Below, in pieces: positions 18,574 through 27,398 of a stretch of DNA of 33,645 bases. The DNA is taken from the NCBI GenBank assembly GCA_024232675.1, contig JAAEPL010000516.1:1-33645 (forward strand). The letters are read 5' to 3'. The translations under genes were made by a program, and so were the position numbers. The DNA comes from Planctomycetaceae bacterium (GTDB lineage Bacteria > Planctomycetota > Planctomycetia > Pirellulales > Pirellulaceae). Below the pieces are notes generated by a model that saw only the letters and a program-made list of their open reading frames with translations, made no database searches and was not told the origin of the DNA. Position 1 is the first letter of the stretch, and each line of letters opens with the position of its first letter.

Positions 18574-18667
18574 ATACGACTCGCCGTCATTAGCCAAGGG
18601 ATTTGGCGATAAATAGCCGGTTGATCGCTTGTGCAATCGACCTCGGACAAGGAAAATAGGGAGATCT

Positions 18668-19885
18668 ATGATGTCAGGGCAAGAACGCAAGAACGTACTC
18701 AAAATGAAACGGCGTAGCAAGCAACAAACTTTCTGCGAAGAACGTGTCAATTCGTACCCGTTCTATTCACCGCGTTTTTGGGCCGGCATGCGTTTCACCG
18801 ATTACATGGGGTTGCTCTCCCGAAATCACTTCCGCGTCCACCCCACGCGCATCCCCATGATGTTCATGGTCGGTGGTTGCTCAGTGCTCTCAAGTGGCTT
18901 AGCGCTGACTCAACAGCTGCTCATGAAACGCCAGATCGAGGCGACCGAATTGAGCGAGCCTCCGATTTTCATCATCGGTCACTGGCGAAGCGGCACCACG
19001 TTGCTGCACGAAATGCTCTGCCTGGATCAACAGTTCTCTTGGCCCTCGACCTTTGAGTGCTTTGTTCCGACTTATCACAATCTGACCAAACCATTCCTGC
19101 AACCGTTACTCCGTTTGTTAATGCCTAGCAAACGACCTATGGATTCCATGCCTGCGGGACCAAACTTACCACAGGAAGATGAATTCGCATTGGTGGGTAT
19201 GGGCGCCCCGACCCCTTATTACCACATCGCTTTTTCTAATGAGCGCCCCGAATTCCAGCAGATGCTAAACCTGAATGATGCCAATGCGGGAGAAATCGAA
19301 GAGTTGCGTAACTCCCTTACATGGTTTTACAAATCGATCAGCTATAAAAACCCCAAGCGTTTGGTGTTAAAATCGCCGACCCACACCGGTCGCATCGCCC
19401 ATTTAGCCAAGTGGTTTCCAGGAGCTAGGTTCGTTCACATTACGCGGCATCCCCACAAGATCTTCCCCTCCAGCATCCACTTATGGAAATCACTTGCGGC
19501 AGTACAAGGGTATCAATGCTCCAAAAACGATGAGCAACGCCTGATCGATCAGGTCAATCAATGGTACCGCGAAATGTATGACGGCTACTTCGAGCAAGTC
19601 GAGCAGATTCCCAAAGAGAATTTGGTACAGTTGAAATTTGAAGATCTTGTGAAAGATCCTGTCAATCAAATTGAGTCCATCTATTCGGCCTTCGATCTGA
19701 AAGGCTTCGCTCAAGCGCGCGTGACCTTAGAGAATTACTGGTCGCAGCGAAAATCTCATCGCGCTAATAAAACGCAGTTGAATGAGGCTACCAAAGAACT
19801 CATCGATGATGTCTGGTCAGATTACATCACGAATTTTGGCTACGCCTCCACAGAAAAAGATGCGAGCTTCGTTCGAGCTGGGTAG
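18668..19885 (+). CDS. Sulfotransferase family protein
   Basis: PIFIIGHWRSGTTLLHEML (5'-PSB loop) and RFVHITRHPHKIFPSSIHLWKS (3'-PB). Confidence 0.88.
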   Translation: MMSGQERKNVLKMKRRSKQQTFCEERVNSYPFYSPRFWAGMRFTDYMGLLSRNHFRVHPTRIPMMFMVGGCSVLSSGLALTQQLLMKRQIEATELSEPPIFIIGHWRSGTTLLHEMLCLDQQFSWPSTFECFVPTYHNLTKPFLQPLLRLLMPSKRPMDSMPAGPNLPQEDEFALVGMGAPTPYYHIAFSNERPEFQQMLNLNDANAGEIEELRNSLTWFYKSISYKNPKRLVLKSPTHTGRIAHLAKWFPGARFVHITRHPHKIFPSSIHLWKSLAAVQGYQCSKNDEQRLIDQVNQWYREMYDGYFEQVEQIPKENLVQLKFEDLVKDPVNQIESIYSAFDLKGFAQARVTLENYWSQRKSHRANKTQLNEATKELIDDVWSDYITNFGYASTEKDASFVRAG

Positions 19886-19926
19886 GCAATCCCAAATTCA
19901 CTGACTGGCCTGGCAAGCAGCCTTCA

Positions 19927-20673
19927 TCACCCCAATTGCCGCGCCCGACGCCTAGCATGGATTTCCGGAGATGGCTCGCTGGCCTGCTGCTCATCCCTAG
20001 CTTCCTGCTCAGTCATCTGCAGAGACCGGCGATGCAACCACCAGCGGACTCCATAATCGGCGGCTCCAACCGCCAATGCAGCGACACACAGTCGCAGTGC
20101 CGTGCCCACCAGCCAATCCATCAGGAGAGGGCTTTTTTCCTGCAAACGCCCCTTCCCCAGCATCATCAGCGCATCGAGGTCACCCAAGACCACCCAGGCG
20201 GCGACGATGGACAAGACAGCCAATTTGCTGATCGCTAAAAGAACCGACACCACTTGCTCGGCGGAAAAGATCTGCCTTAAGTTACGGACCGGATTCAAAC
20301 GATCGATATCAGGAGCCAACAAACCAGGATAGGCGCGAAATCCACTTTGGGCAGTCCAAGTCAAAATAGTAATCCCAGCAATGCCCGCGAGGATCGGAAA
20401 TAAGCTGCTCCAAAATACACCTGCCACCCCCACCCAATTGCTATTCAGCATTTGTTCGGCCGACATGGAGATATCAAATTCGCCCCAGCGGCTTTGACTG
20501 AACCGATCCATTGCACGCCATAGCCAATGTCCAAATGTGGCGACCAGTGCGATGCCTCCTAACCAGACCACAGCGACCGCTAGATCTCGGCTTCGCGCCA
20601 TCTGCCCCGATTGCTGCGCACGCTGCAATCGATTTACCGAAGGGTCTAGATTTGCTTCATCTCGGTCAGACAT
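19927..20673 (-). CDS. flhB: FlhB-like export protein lacking the C-terminal NPTH domain
   Basis: NRLQRAQQSGQMARSRDLAVAVVWLG, DIDRLNPVRNLRQIFS, RWWLHRRSLQMTEQEARDEQQASEPSPEIHARRR, then a stop. Confidence 0.88.
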   Translation of the reverse strand: MSDRDEANLDPSVNRLQRAQQSGQMARSRDLAVAVVWLGGIALVATFGHWLWRAMDRFSQSRWGEFDISMSAEQMLNSNWVGVAGVFWSSLFPILAGIAGITILTWTAQSGFRAYPGLLAPDIDRLNPVRNLRQIFSAEQVVSVLLAISKLAVLSIVAAWVVLGDLDALMMLGKGRLQEKSPLLMDWLVGTALRLCVAALAVGAADYGVRWWLHRRSLQMTEQEARDEQQASEPSPEIHARRRARQLG

Positions 20674-20676
20674 CAA

Positions 20677-21462
20677 TTAACCCGTTTCCCGGAACTCCAA
20701 CCAGTTTTTCAACTCGCCCAGCGTTAACTCAAACCCACCATTAATGATCCACGGAGTCGACAACAGCACCAGCGACGTAACCGCCATACCGAAGACGGCT
20801 TTAATTCCCAGGCCAACCTGCATGCCACCCAGTTGGGGGAAATTTCGTTGGACCATTCCCAAAACGAGGGAGGCTGCCAATAGCGCGGCGATCGCGGGTA
20901 GCGCTGCCGAAACGCCAAATTCAAAAGCGTAGCCAATGGATGTCACCAAAAAATCCACGAATGACTGATCAAATACCGAAGTCCCCGTGGGTAACGCAGT
21001 AAAAGAAAACAACAAACCGTCAATCAACTGCCCAACGCCTCCTGCGGCGACAAAAACAGCCACGGTGGTCCACCAGAACAACTTACCCAAGGGTCCACCA
21101 CCTGTTTCCGAATCCGCAGGGGCCCCAAAAGATGCGAGGGAAAATCCACAAAGCCCTTCAATCACACTACCGGTGATCTGGATACCAGAAAGCATGATGG
21201 AACAGGACAAACCCATCAACGCGCCCACTAACACTTCGTTAACCAAGGTAAGCAATAACGCCGTCCATTCCAGGCTAGGCGTTTCTGCCGTCGCTACCGC
21301 GCCGGGGACGACTGCCAACGACAAGGCCAAAATGAATGCCACTTTGACTCGCATGGGCACCACACGCGTGGCGACCAAAGGCATTGTCATCACCATCGCT
21401 GTAATTCGCACCACAGCCGGGATGGCGGTCAGCAAGATGGCAGTAAGAACAGCATCGCTCAT
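20677..21462 (-). CDS. fliR: Flagellar-type export protein FliR
   Basis: Multi-TM; RITAMVMTMPLVATRVVPMRVKVAFILALSLAVVP; NEVLVGALMGLSCSIMLSGIQITGSVIEGLCGFSLAS; correct gene order. Confidence 0.9.
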   Translation of the reverse strand: MSDAVLTAILLTAIPAVVRITAMVMTMPLVATRVVPMRVKVAFILALSLAVVPGAVATAETPSLEWTALLLTLVNEVLVGALMGLSCSIMLSGIQITGSVIEGLCGFSLASFGAPADSETGGGPLGKLFWWTTVAVFVAAGGVGQLIDGLLFSFTALPTGTSVFDQSFVDFLVTSIGYAFEFGVSAALPAIAALLAASLVLGMVQRNFPQLGGMQVGLGIKAVFGMAVTSLVLLSTPWIINGGFELTLGELKNWLEFRETG

Positions 21463-21506: not shown

Positions 21507-21791
21507 TCAATGATTCGCTTTATCAAACACGGTGCTGGGGATTTGTTGGATCAGATCACGACTGAACCCTGAGTAATGCTCAACAAACCAAGGAGCGCAA
21601 ATACTTATAATCACCACTGCCGCGACGAGTTTGGTTACAAACATCACGGTTTGGTCTTGAATTTGTGTAACGGCCTGCAAAACCCCCACGACGATGCCCA
21701 CGATTACGCCAACGACCAACACAGGAGCCGCCAACAGCAGCACCAGGAAGACCGATTGGCGGGCGATTTCAATTGCAATCTGGGGATCCAT
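21507..21791 (-). CDS. fliQ: Flagellar-type export protein FliQ
   Basis: 94 aa, two TM; VLVVGVIVGIVVGVLQAVTQIQDQTVMFVTKLVAA. Confidence 0.93.
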   Translation of the reverse strand: MDPQIAIEIARQSVFLVLLLAAPVLVVGVIVGIVVGVLQAVTQIQDQTVMFVTKLVAAVVIISICAPWFVEHYSGFSRDLIQQIPSTVFDKANH

Positions 21792-21809: not shown

Positions 21810-22691
21810 TCACAAGTAAGGGCTAAAGCTCTGCATCAACATGCCAACAACCAGGTTCCATCCATCTACCAATACAAACATGATGAGCTTCAAAGGCAAA
21901 CTGACCATGGTCGGCGGTAACATAATCATGCCCAGCGAAGTCGTCACACTAGTTACCACCAAATCGATCACGAGAAAGGGCATGATGACCTGAAACCCGA
22001 TCAGAAAAGCGATTTTCAATTCGCTAATCATGAATGCCGGTAATAACACATGCAGCGGAATATCTTCAAATGTCTCGGGGCGTTGTTCGCGTTCAGCAGC
22101 AGGTAGATGTTTGTAAAACAACCAAATATCATCGACGTTTCCGGCCGCGTCGATTTGCCGGCTCATAAAACGCTTAACAGGCTTGGTGCCTTTTTCCCAC
22201 GCTTCTTCCAGCGATAACTCGCTCTCTTCCGACGTGTAGGGATCCACGGCTTCCTTTTTTATTTCCTGCCAAACCGGAGCCATGATCAGAAAGCTCATGA
22301 ACAACGCCAAAGCCGTCATGATTTGCGTTGAGGGGATTTGCTGCGCCCCCAACGCCTGACGTAGTATTCCCAACACCACGACAATGCGCACGAACGATGT
22401 GGTCATCATGGCGATGGCAGGAACCAAACTGATGACCGCCAGCAATAATACGGTTTTCACCGTACCGGATAACTTGCCTGGTGTAACAAACTCTTCCAGA
22501 TCCAGCGATTCCGAGATGGACGAATCCTGAATCGTCGTTTCCACCGTCTCATGGTCCGAACTCTGCGCGGAAGCGGGGATCGCTGTTAGACAAATGCCAA
22601 GTCCACACAAACCGGCCAAAGCCCATACCGTAACCGGGTGGATACGGCGTACTTTTTTTGATTTCGATGATAAGGAGTGCGAGAGTTTCAA
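21810..22691 (-). CDS. fliP: Flagellar-type export protein FliP
   Basis: LAVISLVPAIAMMTTSFVRIVVVLGILRQALGAQQIPSTQIMTALALFMSF; LLPAFMISELKIAFLIGFQVIMPFLVIDLVV. Start uncertain; a TTG at 22691 just after the fliO stop gives a signal peptide (track start 22778). Confidence 0.93.
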   Translation of the reverse strand: MKLSHSLSSKSKKVRRIHPVTVWALAGLCGLGICLTAIPASAQSSDHETVETTIQDSSISESLDLEEFVTPGKLSGTVKTVLLLAVISLVPAIAMMTTSFVRIVVVLGILRQALGAQQIPSTQIMTALALFMSFLIMAPVWQEIKKEAVDPYTSEESELSLEEAWEKGTKPVKRFMSRQIDAAGNVDDIWLFYKHLPAAEREQRPETFEDIPLHVLLPAFMISELKIAFLIGFQVIMPFLVIDLVVTSVTTSLGMIMLPPTMVSLPLKLIMFVLVDGWNLVVGMLMQSFSPYL

Positions 22692-22695
22692 AGTA

Positions 22696-23352
22696 TTAAG
22701 CTTCCAATAGGGTTCGGCCGCTGCGTTGGTGGCTACCCAGTGAGACATTGGAAGCTGGGTTCGTTCCCTGAAGTGCACGTTGCTGCATAGAAGCGGTCAA
22801 CAAATCCATGCGACCTTGCTGAATAGCTGACTCCAATTGCAACACTTCCTGGGGGTCAGATATTTCACTCAGTGTTTGAGACCCTGATGGAGAGGCCGCG
22901 ACTAATAATAGTCTCGTGCCCAACCGTACTATTTGCAGTTGCTGCCCGTGCACGAAGGGAATTTGGCCCAGTACCGTAAGCACTTGGTTGTCTTGTTTTC
23001 GACCTACAGGCTTCCGGGAGGATGGTCGCAAACGCCACAGAAAGACGCCCAGCAAAAAAAGGCTTAAGACTAGCGTTAACGTAGCTCCCGTTTTTATCGC
23101 GGATTGTCGCGTATTGGGGTCTCGAAAAAGTTGTAAACCGCTCGTCGAAGTGGATTCAACCGAGGGAGGACTAATTTGCTTTTGCAACCAGTCAACGCTG
23201 CGTTCGGCCGCGCTCCGCAAACCCTCCGTCTCTTGAGGTGCTGCGGAGATGAGTGTTTCACCTTCGGTGTTCTGTGCACACACGTTCTCGGCACACCCCA
23301 ACGCAATCAGAGTGCCCAGCATCAAGAAGCAAAATTTCATCATCATTTTCAT
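22696..23352 (-). CDS. fliO: FliO-like protein
   Basis: Signal peptide, single TM TLTLVLSLFLLGVFLWRLRP, then LTVLGQIPFVHGQQLQIVRLGTRLLLVAASPSG; sits between fliG and fliP. Start MKMMMKF at 23352 preferred. Confidence 0.75.
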   Translation of the reverse strand: MKMMMKFCFLMLGTLIALGCAENVCAQNTEGETLISAAPQETEGLRSAAERSVDWLQKQISPPSVESTSTSGLQLFRDPNTRQSAIKTGATLTLVLSLFLLGVFLWRLRPSSRKPVGRKQDNQVLTVLGQIPFVHGQQLQIVRLGTRLLLVAASPSGSQTLSEISDPQEVLQLESAIQQGRMDLLTASMQQRALQGTNPASNVSLGSHQRSGRTLLEA

Positions 23353-23369: not shown

Positions 23370-23933
23370 TTAGCTGGGAATCAGCCCTTGCTCCATCAAA
23401 TTTTTTGCCAAGTCGCAATACATTCGATGGATCTTTTGCATTTCTGAAAAATCCACGCTCTGGGTTTCACTAATTTGCTGACGCACCCGCTCCGCATCCT
23501 CGCTCGATAATCGATTAAGGACTCGTTCAATGAACGATTGAGGACTGCAGGTCAAGACTTGAATCGTCAGATCGGGTGCAGCCGCTTGTAAAAGCTGATC
23601 CAGTGACTCGTTATCCCACTGCACAACTTGCTCAAAACTTGGTGTAACACCCACGTGAATATGCGATCGCAATTCGGGACGTAAAATATTTGGTGTGGCC
23701 GCTGTCATCGTTTGCGGATCAAAGTAAAGGAAATCAGCAAAGTCATTTAATGAACCCTCATCGGAATGACATCCCATGGCTTTCAATTCATTAATTTGCG
23801 TTTCCGCATTAAGCCGTGTCTCTTGATCAAACCCCTGAAGTAACAGCATCACCGTTTCACGTCGGAAATTTACGAGTAAACGCGCCAACTGATTGGTTTG
23901 CCGAGTTGCTAGTTTTACTTTGGCTTCTGACAT
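23370..23933 (-). CDS. fliG: Short FliG-like protein
   Basis: SFEQVVQWDNESLDQLLQAAAPDLTIQVLTCSPQSFIERVLNRLSSEDAERVRQQI...AKNLMEQGLI matches the FliG_C pattern; TAATG junction with fliF. Confidence 0.7.
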   Translation of the reverse strand: MSEAKVKLATRQTNQLARLLVNFRRETVMLLLQGFDQETRLNAETQINELKAMGCHSDEGSLNDFADFLYFDPQTMTAATPNILRPELRSHIHVGVTPSFEQVVQWDNESLDQLLQAAAPDLTIQVLTCSPQSFIERVLNRLSSEDAERVRQQISETQSVDFSEMQKIHRMYCDLAKNLMEQGLIPS

Positions 23934-25639
23934 TACCCTGCCTTTTTATCCAACCATTGACGAATTGTGGCTGCTGCCGCATGTGGGTTATCCCGACACC
24001 ATTGATCCAATTGATCACGCATTAAATGCTGGGTTGTCACATCTAGTGGCGATTCAACTTGGGAACTGGTTACGAATTCCCCCCTGCTCTTTACTGAGAA
24101 ATGCGGCGTTGGCATTTCGGCCCGACGAGAGGCCGACGATGTGGCCTCCGTAACGCTTGGAGGTTGGTAGGTTCGCTCTGCTGTTTCAGAACTGAGATTA
24201 ACGGTCTCTGGATTGGGCGTGGATACTGCGCCTTGACGCCCTTTACCAAAAGGTCGAATAAATATAATCAAGCACAAACTGCCGCCGATGAGAGTCAACC
24301 AAACCCACTGCCCTGCCCACTCCTCTGCGGGCTTATCCCCTGCGGTAATCGACTCGGGAAAGTGAATTTCACGATCGACCGTGACCACAAAGTGTTGACT
24401 GGCTGGTAACTCACCCGCTGGAACCAGCGGTTTAACTTTTTGCTGGATATCTTCTTTTAATTGTTGAAAGATCGTTTGCCGTTGTTCGGTGGCAGTGAGG
24501 CCTTCCGCGTTGGCATTTTCGATATTCTGATTCACAAAATACTTCACGCAGCGTTCGGGAATTCCAATCGACACATTCACGTACTTGACCATCGGTCCCG
24601 CTGACTCGGTCGTTTCAAAGGTGCCATTTGCTGCGGACTCGGTCGTCTCCGATACCACCTTGGGTGATTCCAACTTCTCCACATTCCCCTGCACATTGGT
24701 TGCCAAACTGAAAAAGCCCCTTAATCGCGAAGGGGTTGTGGACGGCATGTTGGATTCAAATTCACGATGGGTCATTTTCTGAATGACCATCGGTTTACTA
24801 TGTATTTTTCGTTCATCACGGATCCGTCTGACGACGGGGTCAATCATCACTTCCACATTGACTCGAATCCCAGGATAGGCCGCTAGCGCACTACGAATCT
24901 TCAACTCGTATTTGCGTTCCGCCTGCATTTGCGCCATTTCGTGCGGTTGAAATTTCTCCGCATCACTGGCAATCACACCTGTATAAGATTTGCTCGAAAA
25001 CGTGTCGATAATCGTAATGTCATCCGGTTGCAGACCTGCCACGGCTCCGCACACCGTGTCCCGAATCGCTTTCACCTCGGACAGATTCAGATTTCGATTT
25101 TCTGCTGGACCGACATTCACAATGGCCGTTCTCTGCATGTCTTCGAAGGGCGAACTGCCGCTCGCCTCGTCGTATTCCACCATGGCTCGATCGACAAAAC
25201 GCAATTGTAAAACCATGTCTCGAATGGTTCTTTTTTTGCGATTTAATTGCACCGCCCTTAGTTGCTGGCGAGTTTGAAAGATCCCTGCCGCGGAAGTGAC
25301 TTCGGCTTGACTCTGCAAATCTCGCGGCACCGCGCCGTGATCAGCTAAAGCCTTTAGATAGGCGCCGCGAAATTGTCGTGGCACGCATACCTGCGTCCCC
25401 CGAATTTCATATTCGTTTAGCCCTGATTTCCCGAACGCAACTTGCATTAAACCGACCTCATCAGGGGTCAGTACGCGCGACTCGAATAGTGATATTTCCG
25501 TCGGAGACGAGAACTTCTGATTGGCGATAACGGAAATTAAAGTCAGTGCCACCAAAGTCACAACTCCCCAACGGGCCGCTGTCGGACGTTCGCGAAACCA
25601 ACCTGCGAGAGAACTTCCCCATTCTTGCCAAGATTTCAT
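23933..25639 (-). CDS. fliF: FliF-like MS-ring protein
   Basis: N-terminal TM; AVQLNRKKRTIRDMVLQLRFVDRAMVEYDEASG, RTAIVNVGPAENRNLNLSEVKAIRDTVCGAVAGLQPDDITIID; C-terminal TM WVWLTLIGGSLCLIIFI and acidic/helical tail. Confidence 0.85.
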   Translation of the reverse strand: MKSWQEWGSSLAGWFRERPTAARWGVVTLVALTLISVIANQKFSSPTEISLFESRVLTPDEVGLMQVAFGKSGLNEYEIRGTQVCVPRQFRGAYLKALADHGAVPRDLQSQAEVTSAAGIFQTRQQLRAVQLNRKKRTIRDMVLQLRFVDRAMVEYDEASGSSPFEDMQRTAIVNVGPAENRNLNLSEVKAIRDTVCGAVAGLQPDDITIIDTFSSKSYTGVIASDAEKFQPHEMAQMQAERKYELKIRSALAAYPGIRVNVEVMIDPVVRRIRDERKIHSKPMVIQKMTHREFESNMPSTTPSRLRGFFSLATNVQGNVEKLESPKVVSETTESAANGTFETTESAGPMVKYVNVSIGIPERCVKYFVNQNIENANAEGLTATEQRQTIFQQLKEDIQQKVKPLVPAGELPASQHFVVTVDREIHFPESITAGDKPAEEWAGQWVWLTLIGGSLCLIIFIRPFGKGRQGAVSTPNPETVNLSSETAERTYQPPSVTEATSSASRRAEMPTPHFSVKSRGEFVTSSQVESPLDVTTQHLMRDQLDQWCRDNPHAAAATIRQWLDKKAG

Positions 25640-25702: not shown

Positions 25703-26290
25703 CTATGCAACGCGACGTTGGGACGAAGTGCGGCCTGACAAATCCAATTGGATGGCACAGCCTCCAACGGGGCATTTCAAGTCAACGGCACGATCAACCG
25801 AAATCAACTGACGTGTAAATTCCCAAGCCTCAGAAGCTAACAATTCTCCGGACTCTACCGACCGACTGTCACACCCGATTTCCAATTCGATACCGTGCGA
25901 CAGAGATCCCAAAGTTAATTCAATGGTGGAACCACGCTCAACTCGCGTGGCTAGTTCCATCAATAAACACCAGATGCCTAAATAGTCATTTTCGAAGAAA
26001 ACGCGGCCCTGCCCGTTTCCAAAACAACTTACGCTGAGCTTCACATCCAAACTTGAAAGTAAGCCCTCCAAGTCCGTCGCTAAGTCATGAACCAACTTTT
26101 CCACATTGCGCGATTGGTATCGGGAGCCCGATTGCAAGTCGCTGTGCAACAACTGAACGAGCATGAACTTCTGATCAATGCAAAGATTTACCGGAGCGAT
26201 GGGTTTGATGCCCGATAAACGATTTCGAAAAATCTCGGCAAGGCTCTGCCAGGCTCGGATGTCGGGTGTCGAAATTTTTGAGTAGTTCAT
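25703..26290 (-). CDS. Unknown protein upstream of fliF; faint histidine-kinase ATPase-like features
   Basis: ORF 64 nt upstream of fliF on the same strand; NVEKLVHDLATDLEGLLSSLDVKLSVSCFG...DYLGIWCLLMELATRVERGSTIELTLGSLSHGIELEIG loosely resembles HATPase_c without clear G boxes. Confidence 0.5.
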   Translation of the reverse strand: MNYSKISTPDIRAWQSLAEIFRNRLSGIKPIAPVNLCIDQKFMLVQLLHSDLQSGSRYQSRNVEKLVHDLATDLEGLLSSLDVKLSVSCFGNGQGRVFFENDYLGIWCLLMELATRVERGSTIELTLGSLSHGIELEIGCDSRSVESGELLASEAWEFTRQLISVDRAVDLKCPVGGCAIQLDLSGRTSSQRRVA

Positions 26291-26579
26291 GCGAATCCCT
26301 GCTTGAATCAACTGTGCGTTTCATCAACTCGTCTTCGCCATGCCGGTCATCCTGACCAACTTCTTTAGGCGAAGTCGCAGATATCTACAAGAATTTCACA
26401 AATACTGTCAATCCAGTATTTCGAGATTGCAAACGAAAGCGGTGCTATCGCTGCTCACAGGCAGGCTGCCAGCGTCTACTGTGGACGCCAAGAATCGTGC
26501 GAAGAGGAGACAGTCACGTCACTTTCCGCGCGGACTGCGGCGGCAGAGAAGCAGCCAACGTAATTAACGGAAATTTATG

Positions 26580-27398
26580 CTAGCCAATGATATTGGCGCC
26601 GGAACTGGATAATTGGGACATCATCCATTCACTGAGGTCACCCAATACTTGATTCGGCAATTGATCGGCCACGGGATATTGCCGCAAAGTCACATCAAAA
26701 CCGGCAACGTGCAGTAACTTCAATTGATGACAAAGATTTGACTCCGGAAAATAGACAGAGCGTCTACCGTGAGCCCAAAAAACCGGAACATCACGACAGT
26801 CACGCCAATTGCCCAAAGGGTTGAGATTGGCTGGCAAACTGCCGTTCAAAGACGCGACTCCGGCAAACCAATTCGGCCGCTTCAGGGCGATCCGGTAAGC
26901 CATCGTTCCGCCATTCCCTTGCCCGGCAATAAAGATCCGTTGCTTATCGATATTAAACCGAGCAGCGACGGTATCAATCTGCCAAGCTACCTGGTTAATC
27001 ATCCACTCAATGGCTTCGGATGTTTGCAGCCAGCCATAGGAACCATCTTGATCAAGTCGCTCCGTTCCAGCCAACGATACGCCGAGGTAGTTCCGATCGC
27101 TGATTTTCGGCATCACCTCATCAAGGTGTTGATGACTGGAGCCATTAGGATGCAGCCAAATTAAAAGCGGATACGCGTACCGACTTTCGTAATGCACGGG
27201 CAAAAAGATAGAACTTGGGCTTCGGTAAGATGAGGCACTTGCTCCATTAGTGATCCCCAAATGCCTCGCCATATGATCGCCTTCCGAATCGACGCGATCA
27301 GAAGAGGATCCTCCAACTGACGAATCACTAGAGAGCTCACAAAGTTCGGAGTGGGACTTGCCCATGCCAGCGAGGGGCCCAAGCTTGATGCGGTTCAT
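26580..27398 (-). CDS. Esterase/PHB-depolymerase-like alpha/beta-hydrolase-fold protein, probably catalytically dead
   Basis: YPLLIWLHPNGSSHQH, DKQRIFIAGQGNGGTMAYRIALKRPNWFAGVASLNG, VPVFWAHGRRSVYFP. Confidence 0.75.
   Translation of the reverse strand: MNRIKLGPLAGMGKSHSELCELSSDSSVGGSSSDRVDSEGDHMARHLGITNGASASSYRSPSSIFLPVHYESRYAYPLLIWLHPNGSSHQHLDEVMPKISDRNYLGVSLAGTERLDQDGSYGWLQTSEAIEWMINQVAWQIDTVAARFNIDKQRIFIAGQGNGGTMAYRIALKRPNWFAGVASLNGSLPANLNPLGNWRDCRDVPVFWAHGRRSVYFPESNLCHQLKLLHVAGFDVTLRQYPVADQLPNQVLGDLSEWMMSQLSSSGANIIG

Follow-up and report, generated by a model that had tools for sequence, protein, structure and literature searches.

A second flagellum-type export gate in a planctomycete carries a short FlhB without the autocleaving domain, a domain that seems to have been lost repeatedly within the order

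The window analysed here is the whole of a 33,645-nucleotide contig (C515; JAAEPL010000516.1) from a Planctomycetaceae bacterium, whose assembly (GCA_024232675.1) comprises 4.88 Mb in 684 contigs. Its FliF-FliG_like-FliO-FliP-FliQ-FliR-FlhB cluster is a second, flagellum-type export gate of this genome (Table 1). The FliG of the cluster is reduced to its C-terminal domain, and no gene for FliH, FliI or FliN was found in the cluster. The sulfotransferase gene that converges on flhB is a neighbour and no part of the export machine. A sulfotransferase gene adjoins flhB in many genera, mostly in convergent orientation, with flhB being full, degenerate or short. A 202-aa protein encoded upstream of fliF (25703-26311) has no Pfam or NCBIfam match, and an esterase-like gene at 26580-27398 is also present near the same cluster in three other genomes (G006, G031 and G038).

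Table 1. Features of the export gate cluster and its convergent neighbour in the window
Feature	Position	Strand	Evidence or remark
Sulfotransferase, convergent	18629..19885	(+)	PF13469 E=2.2e-35
Intergenic gap between convergent stop codons	19886..19926	.	41 nt
3' end of short flhB	19927..20060	(-)	Last of TM part, linker and stop codon; FlhB_C would come next
Short flhB (TM domain and linker, without FlhB_C)	19927..20673	(-)	PF01312 E=1.6e-45, positions 5-236/335
fliR (second copy)	20677..21462	(-)	PF01311 E=1.5e-40; TIGR01400 fliR outscores SctT model
fliQ (second copy)	21507..21791	(-)	PF01313 E=3.3e-23
fliP (second copy)	21810..22715	(-)	PF00813 E=7.6e-69; above TIGR01103 fliP cut-off, below yscR cut-off
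fliO	22696..23352	(-)	PF04347 E=1e-6, above gathering score; purifying selection
FliG-like, 187 aa	23370..23933	(-)	PF01706 E=1.2e-9; FliG C-terminal domain alone recognisable
fliF (second, divergent MS-ring protein)	23933..25639	(-)	PF01514 E=6.5e-11

The open reading frame of the short flhB covers 19927-20676(-), with 249 codons when counted from the TTG at 20676; the likely start is the ATG at 20673, giving 248 aa, and the protein of a congener (G001) begins at the same place. The translated frame ends in ...MTEQEARDEQQASEPSPEIHARRRARQLG followed by the stop codon, its tail reading ...RRSLQMTEQEARDEQQASEPSPEIHARRRARQLG. The C-terminus quoted in the initial annotation contained one small slip (EASEP for QASEP). 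Both the four-helix transmembrane (TM) domain and the linker of the FlhB/SctU family (PF01312) are present, and the gene is encoded together with fliOPQR as expected for this family. A profile built from short FlhBs (A2) aligns with residues 1-251 of solved FlhBs (E=6e-52), and hence the short FlhB consists of the TM domain and the linker. The autocleaving cytoplasmic domain with its NPTH motif (FlhB_C) is absent from the protein: profile coverage is restricted to positions 5-236 of the 335 in PF01312, the score stays below the curated flhB cut-off (117 of 349 bits), and no NPTx-like motif occurs within 900 nt downstream of the stop in the three frames of the flhB strand. The annotation had described an FlhB that stops before the NPTH domain, 41 nt from the convergent sulfotransferase gene, and thus an export gate apparently deprived of its specificity switch. 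This description holds for the window gate, including the exact spacing (19886-19926).

The congener possesses the same cluster in the same gene order, with the same FlhB end and the same convergent gene, so that a relative does stop at the same place, a point which the annotation had left to be checked. Its short FlhB is 90% identical to that of the window (dN/dS 0.044, dS about 1.15), and the other genes of the cluster gave dN/dS of 0.041 for FliR, 0.051 for FliP, 0.086 for FliO, 0.072 for the FliG-like gene and 0.094 for FliF (the portion available for the congener). The short FlhB is therefore constrained similarly to the full-length FlhB of the same genome pair (0.038). All these values were calculated by the Nei-Gojobori method from one genome pair with dS of about 0.9-1.4, and are rough but far below 1. 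On a tree of the TM domain only, the short FlhBs form long branches, which points to a constraint that is relaxed relative to that on the flagellar FlhB.

The FlhB described in the initial annotation turned out not to be the organism's sole FlhB. A full-length protein of 360 aa with the motif NPTHFAVAL is encoded on another contig (C460), together with its own FliR and FliQ. Rod/hook genes (PF00460; C160 and C460) occur as a single set in the window genome, which also has one FliK (C460) and two flagellin matches (PF00669; C552 and C160), neither of the latter on the window contig. Contig sharing and comparison across genomes lead us to infer that these axial genes serve the full-length FlhB system. 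A second FlhA is found on C426, with sigma-28 and FlgM genes after flhA, and the window gate probably works with these three proteins, as judged by pairing across genomes and not by local synteny. We rejected the idea that this second FlhA is truly truncated, because the contig end cuts off its N-terminal half, and in G002 the second FlhA is complete. Elsewhere, two frames of about 500 aa match the cytoplasmic half of FlhA alone (profile about 309-656; G020:C10:357603-358631 and G041:C1:2744771-2745808), each in a genome that has a full FlhA at another position.

Our survey of 247 genomes of the order (Pirellulales-like) identified PF01312 in 236 of them, and about 87 had only a weak match, none better than E=1e-75. 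In the 58 selected genomes in which FlhB coordinates were inspected, most of the weak matches run to about position 220-250 of the profile. Dozens of genomes of the order have no FlhB other than a short or degenerate one, and its reading frame is uninterrupted in nearly every case. The 69 FlhB ends that we classed comprise 21 with NPT[HE], 6 with a C-domain lacking the motif and 42 short ones, of which one (G002) is cut by a contig end. The points of truncation vary among the FlhBs. Several intermediates have mutated cleavage motifs (SPTE, STIE, NPAE, NSAG and AGxS), and further degenerate motifs include TPGG and DGSD, among others; the NPTQ of L210 is not a sure loss. Most native full-length FlhBs of the order (L008-L074) have NPTE, not NPTH, at the cleavage motif.

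The separate protein that the annotation had suggested as a source of the missing domain is unsupported. In the window genome the FlhB_C profile matches nothing but the C-domain belonging to the full-length FlhB on C460, and across 45 genomes the convincing matches lie solely inside full-length FlhBs; among the weaker ones are those to the degenerate domains in G180, in G240 and in the second copy of G222, besides a few marginal matches. In a class-wide sample, weak or short FlhBs are also present in families f21 and f22, and all f21 genomes with a match have just a weak, short or degenerate FlhB. Families f23 and f24 contain stand-alone FlhB_C proteins (FlhX-like) of about 92 aa, in most cases in genomes that also have a full FlhB, and the sole match in G375 is a C-terminal one of this stand-alone type.

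The occurrence of the full-length FlhB coincides with that of the axial genes. In 33 genomes, selected to cover both kinds and not at random, flagellin is present in all of those that have a full FlhB (12/12) and in none of the others (0/21), and the same counts were obtained for the rod/hook genes (PF00460). Among 38 genomes, also selected and not random, FliK above the cut-off was detected in 13/13 with a full FlhB and in 0/25 with short or degenerate forms only, with one sub-threshold match. A naive Fisher test of 12/12 against 0/21 gives 2.8e-9 for genomes that are related to each other, and the same association holds in each of the six phylogenetically independent pairs defined by supported branches (p=0.03, the lowest value that six pairs allow).

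FlhA was identified in 33/33 genomes, with conserved FHIPEP core motifs and with two copies in most of the genomes that have two FlhBs, and FlgM in 38/38 (37 above the cut-off), in several cases a few kb from flhA. The short-only genomes retain fliF, fliO-P-Q-R-flhB and flhA in a conserved gene order, plus a FliG-like gene where recognisable; after flhA, several of them carry FlhF-like and MinD/FlhG-like genes and most carry sigma-28. A FliN-like gene (PF01052) was confirmed in G006, FliI-like genes are present in G049 and G026, and G085 has FliH, FliI and a three-domain FliG. The co-loss of FlhB_C with the axial genes and FliK suggests that the gate may have been kept for another job. The single sequence on which the annotation was based could not have revealed this joint disappearance, across the order, of FlhB_C and of the rod, hook and filament genes and FliK.

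We reconstructed changes in the state of the FlhB C-domain on a tree of concatenated FliP, FliR and FlhB-TM (120 rows, C-domain left out), in which individual placements are uncertain because of long branches. The changes amount to at least 10 by supported branches and 14 by parsimony. Since a lost domain is unlikely to be regained, we read them as losses, of which at least ten would be separate. A single origin of the short FlhB was also considered; the TM-only tree is undecided on this, and the concatenated tree is against it. In two supported clades, degenerate FlhBs are sister to deleted ones (L148/L153 with G049/G085, and L137/L140/L155 with G026), suggesting that the motif decays first and the domain goes later.

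In several records the neighbour of a convergent sulfotransferase gene is a full-length NPT[H/E] flhB, and in others it is a short or degenerate one. The sulfotransferase gene therefore marks the same locus in both kinds of genomes, and the short flhB is best read as a truncated form of the order's native flagellar locus. The TM-only tree places most full-length FlhBs from two-copy genomes in a group separate from the native FlhBs, with modest support, and the full-length FlhB of the window genus (L026:8350-9432) likewise falls outside the order's native FlhBs. These positions are compatible with a separately acquired flagellum in the two-copy genomes.

Taken together, the window cluster is likely to be an export gate of flagellar descent from which the axial parts, and with them the need for the switch, were lost, and which is still under purifying selection. 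Autocleavage of FlhB and the ruler FliK serve the switch from rod/hook to filament, for which autocleavage is essential, and FlhB with the N269A substitution stays locked in the rod/hook state in Salmonella (PMC3708937). The order's native flagellar locus would repeatedly have lost all recognisable rod, hook and filament genes together with FliK; as no hook-to-filament transition would be left to time, FlhB_C would no longer be selected, and decay of the NPT[H/E] motif would have been followed by deletion of the domain. The TM helices of FlhB wrap FliPQR and are integral to the gate, and gating and secretion depend critically on the loop that joins helices 2 and 3 (PMC7064499). This part, around the FliPQR pore and with the gating loop, would accordingly be the one retained under purifying selection.

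Such a switchless gate would still export one substrate class into the periplasm, with FlgM (anti-sigma-28) and perhaps other proteins as candidate cargo. Its retention together with sigma-28 where nothing axial is kept makes FlgM the best candidate, even though it could be kept for another reason. That the system is a dedicated FlgM exporter, and thereby a flagellum-free switch coupling transcription to secretion that originated many times convergently in planctomycetes, is a speculative extension which we put forward tentatively. In Salmonella a short deletion within FlhB_C is reported to abolish secretion (PMC3640470), and a gate without FlhB_C would thus need adaptation.

Several other explanations were weighed against a selected export gate. 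A role outside export, in which the ring and gate with FlhF and FlhG would mark the pole or act as a scaffold in the membrane without translocating protein, seems unlikely. The FlhF-like and MinD/FlhG-like genes after flhA in several short-only genomes fit such a role, as does the retention of FliF, FliG-like and FliN-like proteins. However, a conserved pore would be needless in a scaffold, and FliPQR, FlhA including its FHIPEP core and the TM part of FlhB are all retained, as are FliH and FliI in some genomes.

It is also improbable that the gate is a decaying relic of a lost flagellum, the truncation being one step of decay with no present function. The absence of all axial parts, the long branches of the short FlhBs, their varied end points and the reduced FliG with no FliH/FliI nearby in the window would be expected of a relic. 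Yet dN/dS is 0.04-0.09 for six genes, with the short FlhB as constrained as the full-length one, and the frames are intact in nearly all of the dozens of genomes, gene order is conserved, and FlhA, sigma-28 and FlgM are co-retained.

A supply of the domain in trans, whether from a stand-alone FlhX-like FlhB_C or from the other flagellum's full-length FlhB, is very doubtful. FlhX-like proteins do exist in other families of the class and the window genome does hold a full FlhB, but neither this genome nor any short-only genome searched has a stand-alone FlhB_C, the FlhX-like proteins of the class belong to full-FlhB genomes with one exception, and the short-only genomes are without a full FlhB, which largely refutes the explanation there. 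We give scarcely any credence to a non-flagellar injectisome (NF-T3SS) minus SctU_C. The SctU (TIGR01404) and FlhB (TIGR00328) models score about equally on the truncated protein, whereas the other components do not have the identity of SctR, SctT or SctS: FliP clears the flagellar cut-off but not that for SctR, the flagellar models give FliR and FliQ higher scores than the SctT and SctS ones do, FliO and a FliG-like gene are in the cluster, and the locus appears to be a native flagellar one. Finally, the assembly error or strain-specific nonsense mutation that the annotation had wanted checked, and that 684 contigs might invite, has a negligible chance of being correct, given the same end codon in a separate assembly of the congener at dS about 1.15, the low dN/dS, and the lack of any C-domain remnant past the stop, with the convergent gene 41 nt off.

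The order provides a natural experiment on the purpose of FlhB_C with at least ten repeats, in which the switch domain goes once hook, filament and ruler are gone. The gate part stays strongly selected, which fits the view that the gate and switch roles of FlhB are separable. The findings point to a secretion-like machine that is widespread in planctomycetes yet unrecognised, and also to forms intermediate between the flagellum and other type III systems. We found no prior description of a switchless, axial-less gate in the searchable open literature (open PMC, with subscription papers and preprints outside this scope).

The system shares with the flagellar FliPQR-FlhB gate the TM domain and linker, the fliOPQR-flhB order, PF01312 and a flagellar-type FliP, but differs from it in having no FlhB_C, autocleavage motif, rod, hook, filament or FliK. 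The FlhX-like proteins show that FlhB can be split into halves; they represent the opposite half to the short FlhB, and none was found alongside the short FlhBs searched. Flagellar proteins without a flagellum are likewise known from Chlamydia, of a related phylum, where the three orthologues FliF, FlhA and FliI exist beside, and interact with, type III secretion proteins (PMC2830194). In Buchnera basal bodies the gate was also kept after the loss of flagellin and motor genes, although rod and partial hook genes are retained there and not in the short-only genomes (PMC8109811). The non-flagellated Lysobacter enzymogenes similarly keeps flagellar export genes (PMC9927559); the accessible part of that report describes them as functional in secreting the hook-capping substrate FlgD, which is kept there unlike in the short-FlhB system, and mentions no truncation of FlhB. 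The myxococcal systems, counted as NF-T3SS, also have a conserved, vertically kept and flagellum-related core without axial proteins, and lack FliG (PMC3459982). In contrast to them, the planctomycete systems keep FliO, a FliG-like protein, FlhF/FlhG, sigma-28 and FlgM while FlhB_C is lost, and this form seems to have arisen many times from flagella within one order.
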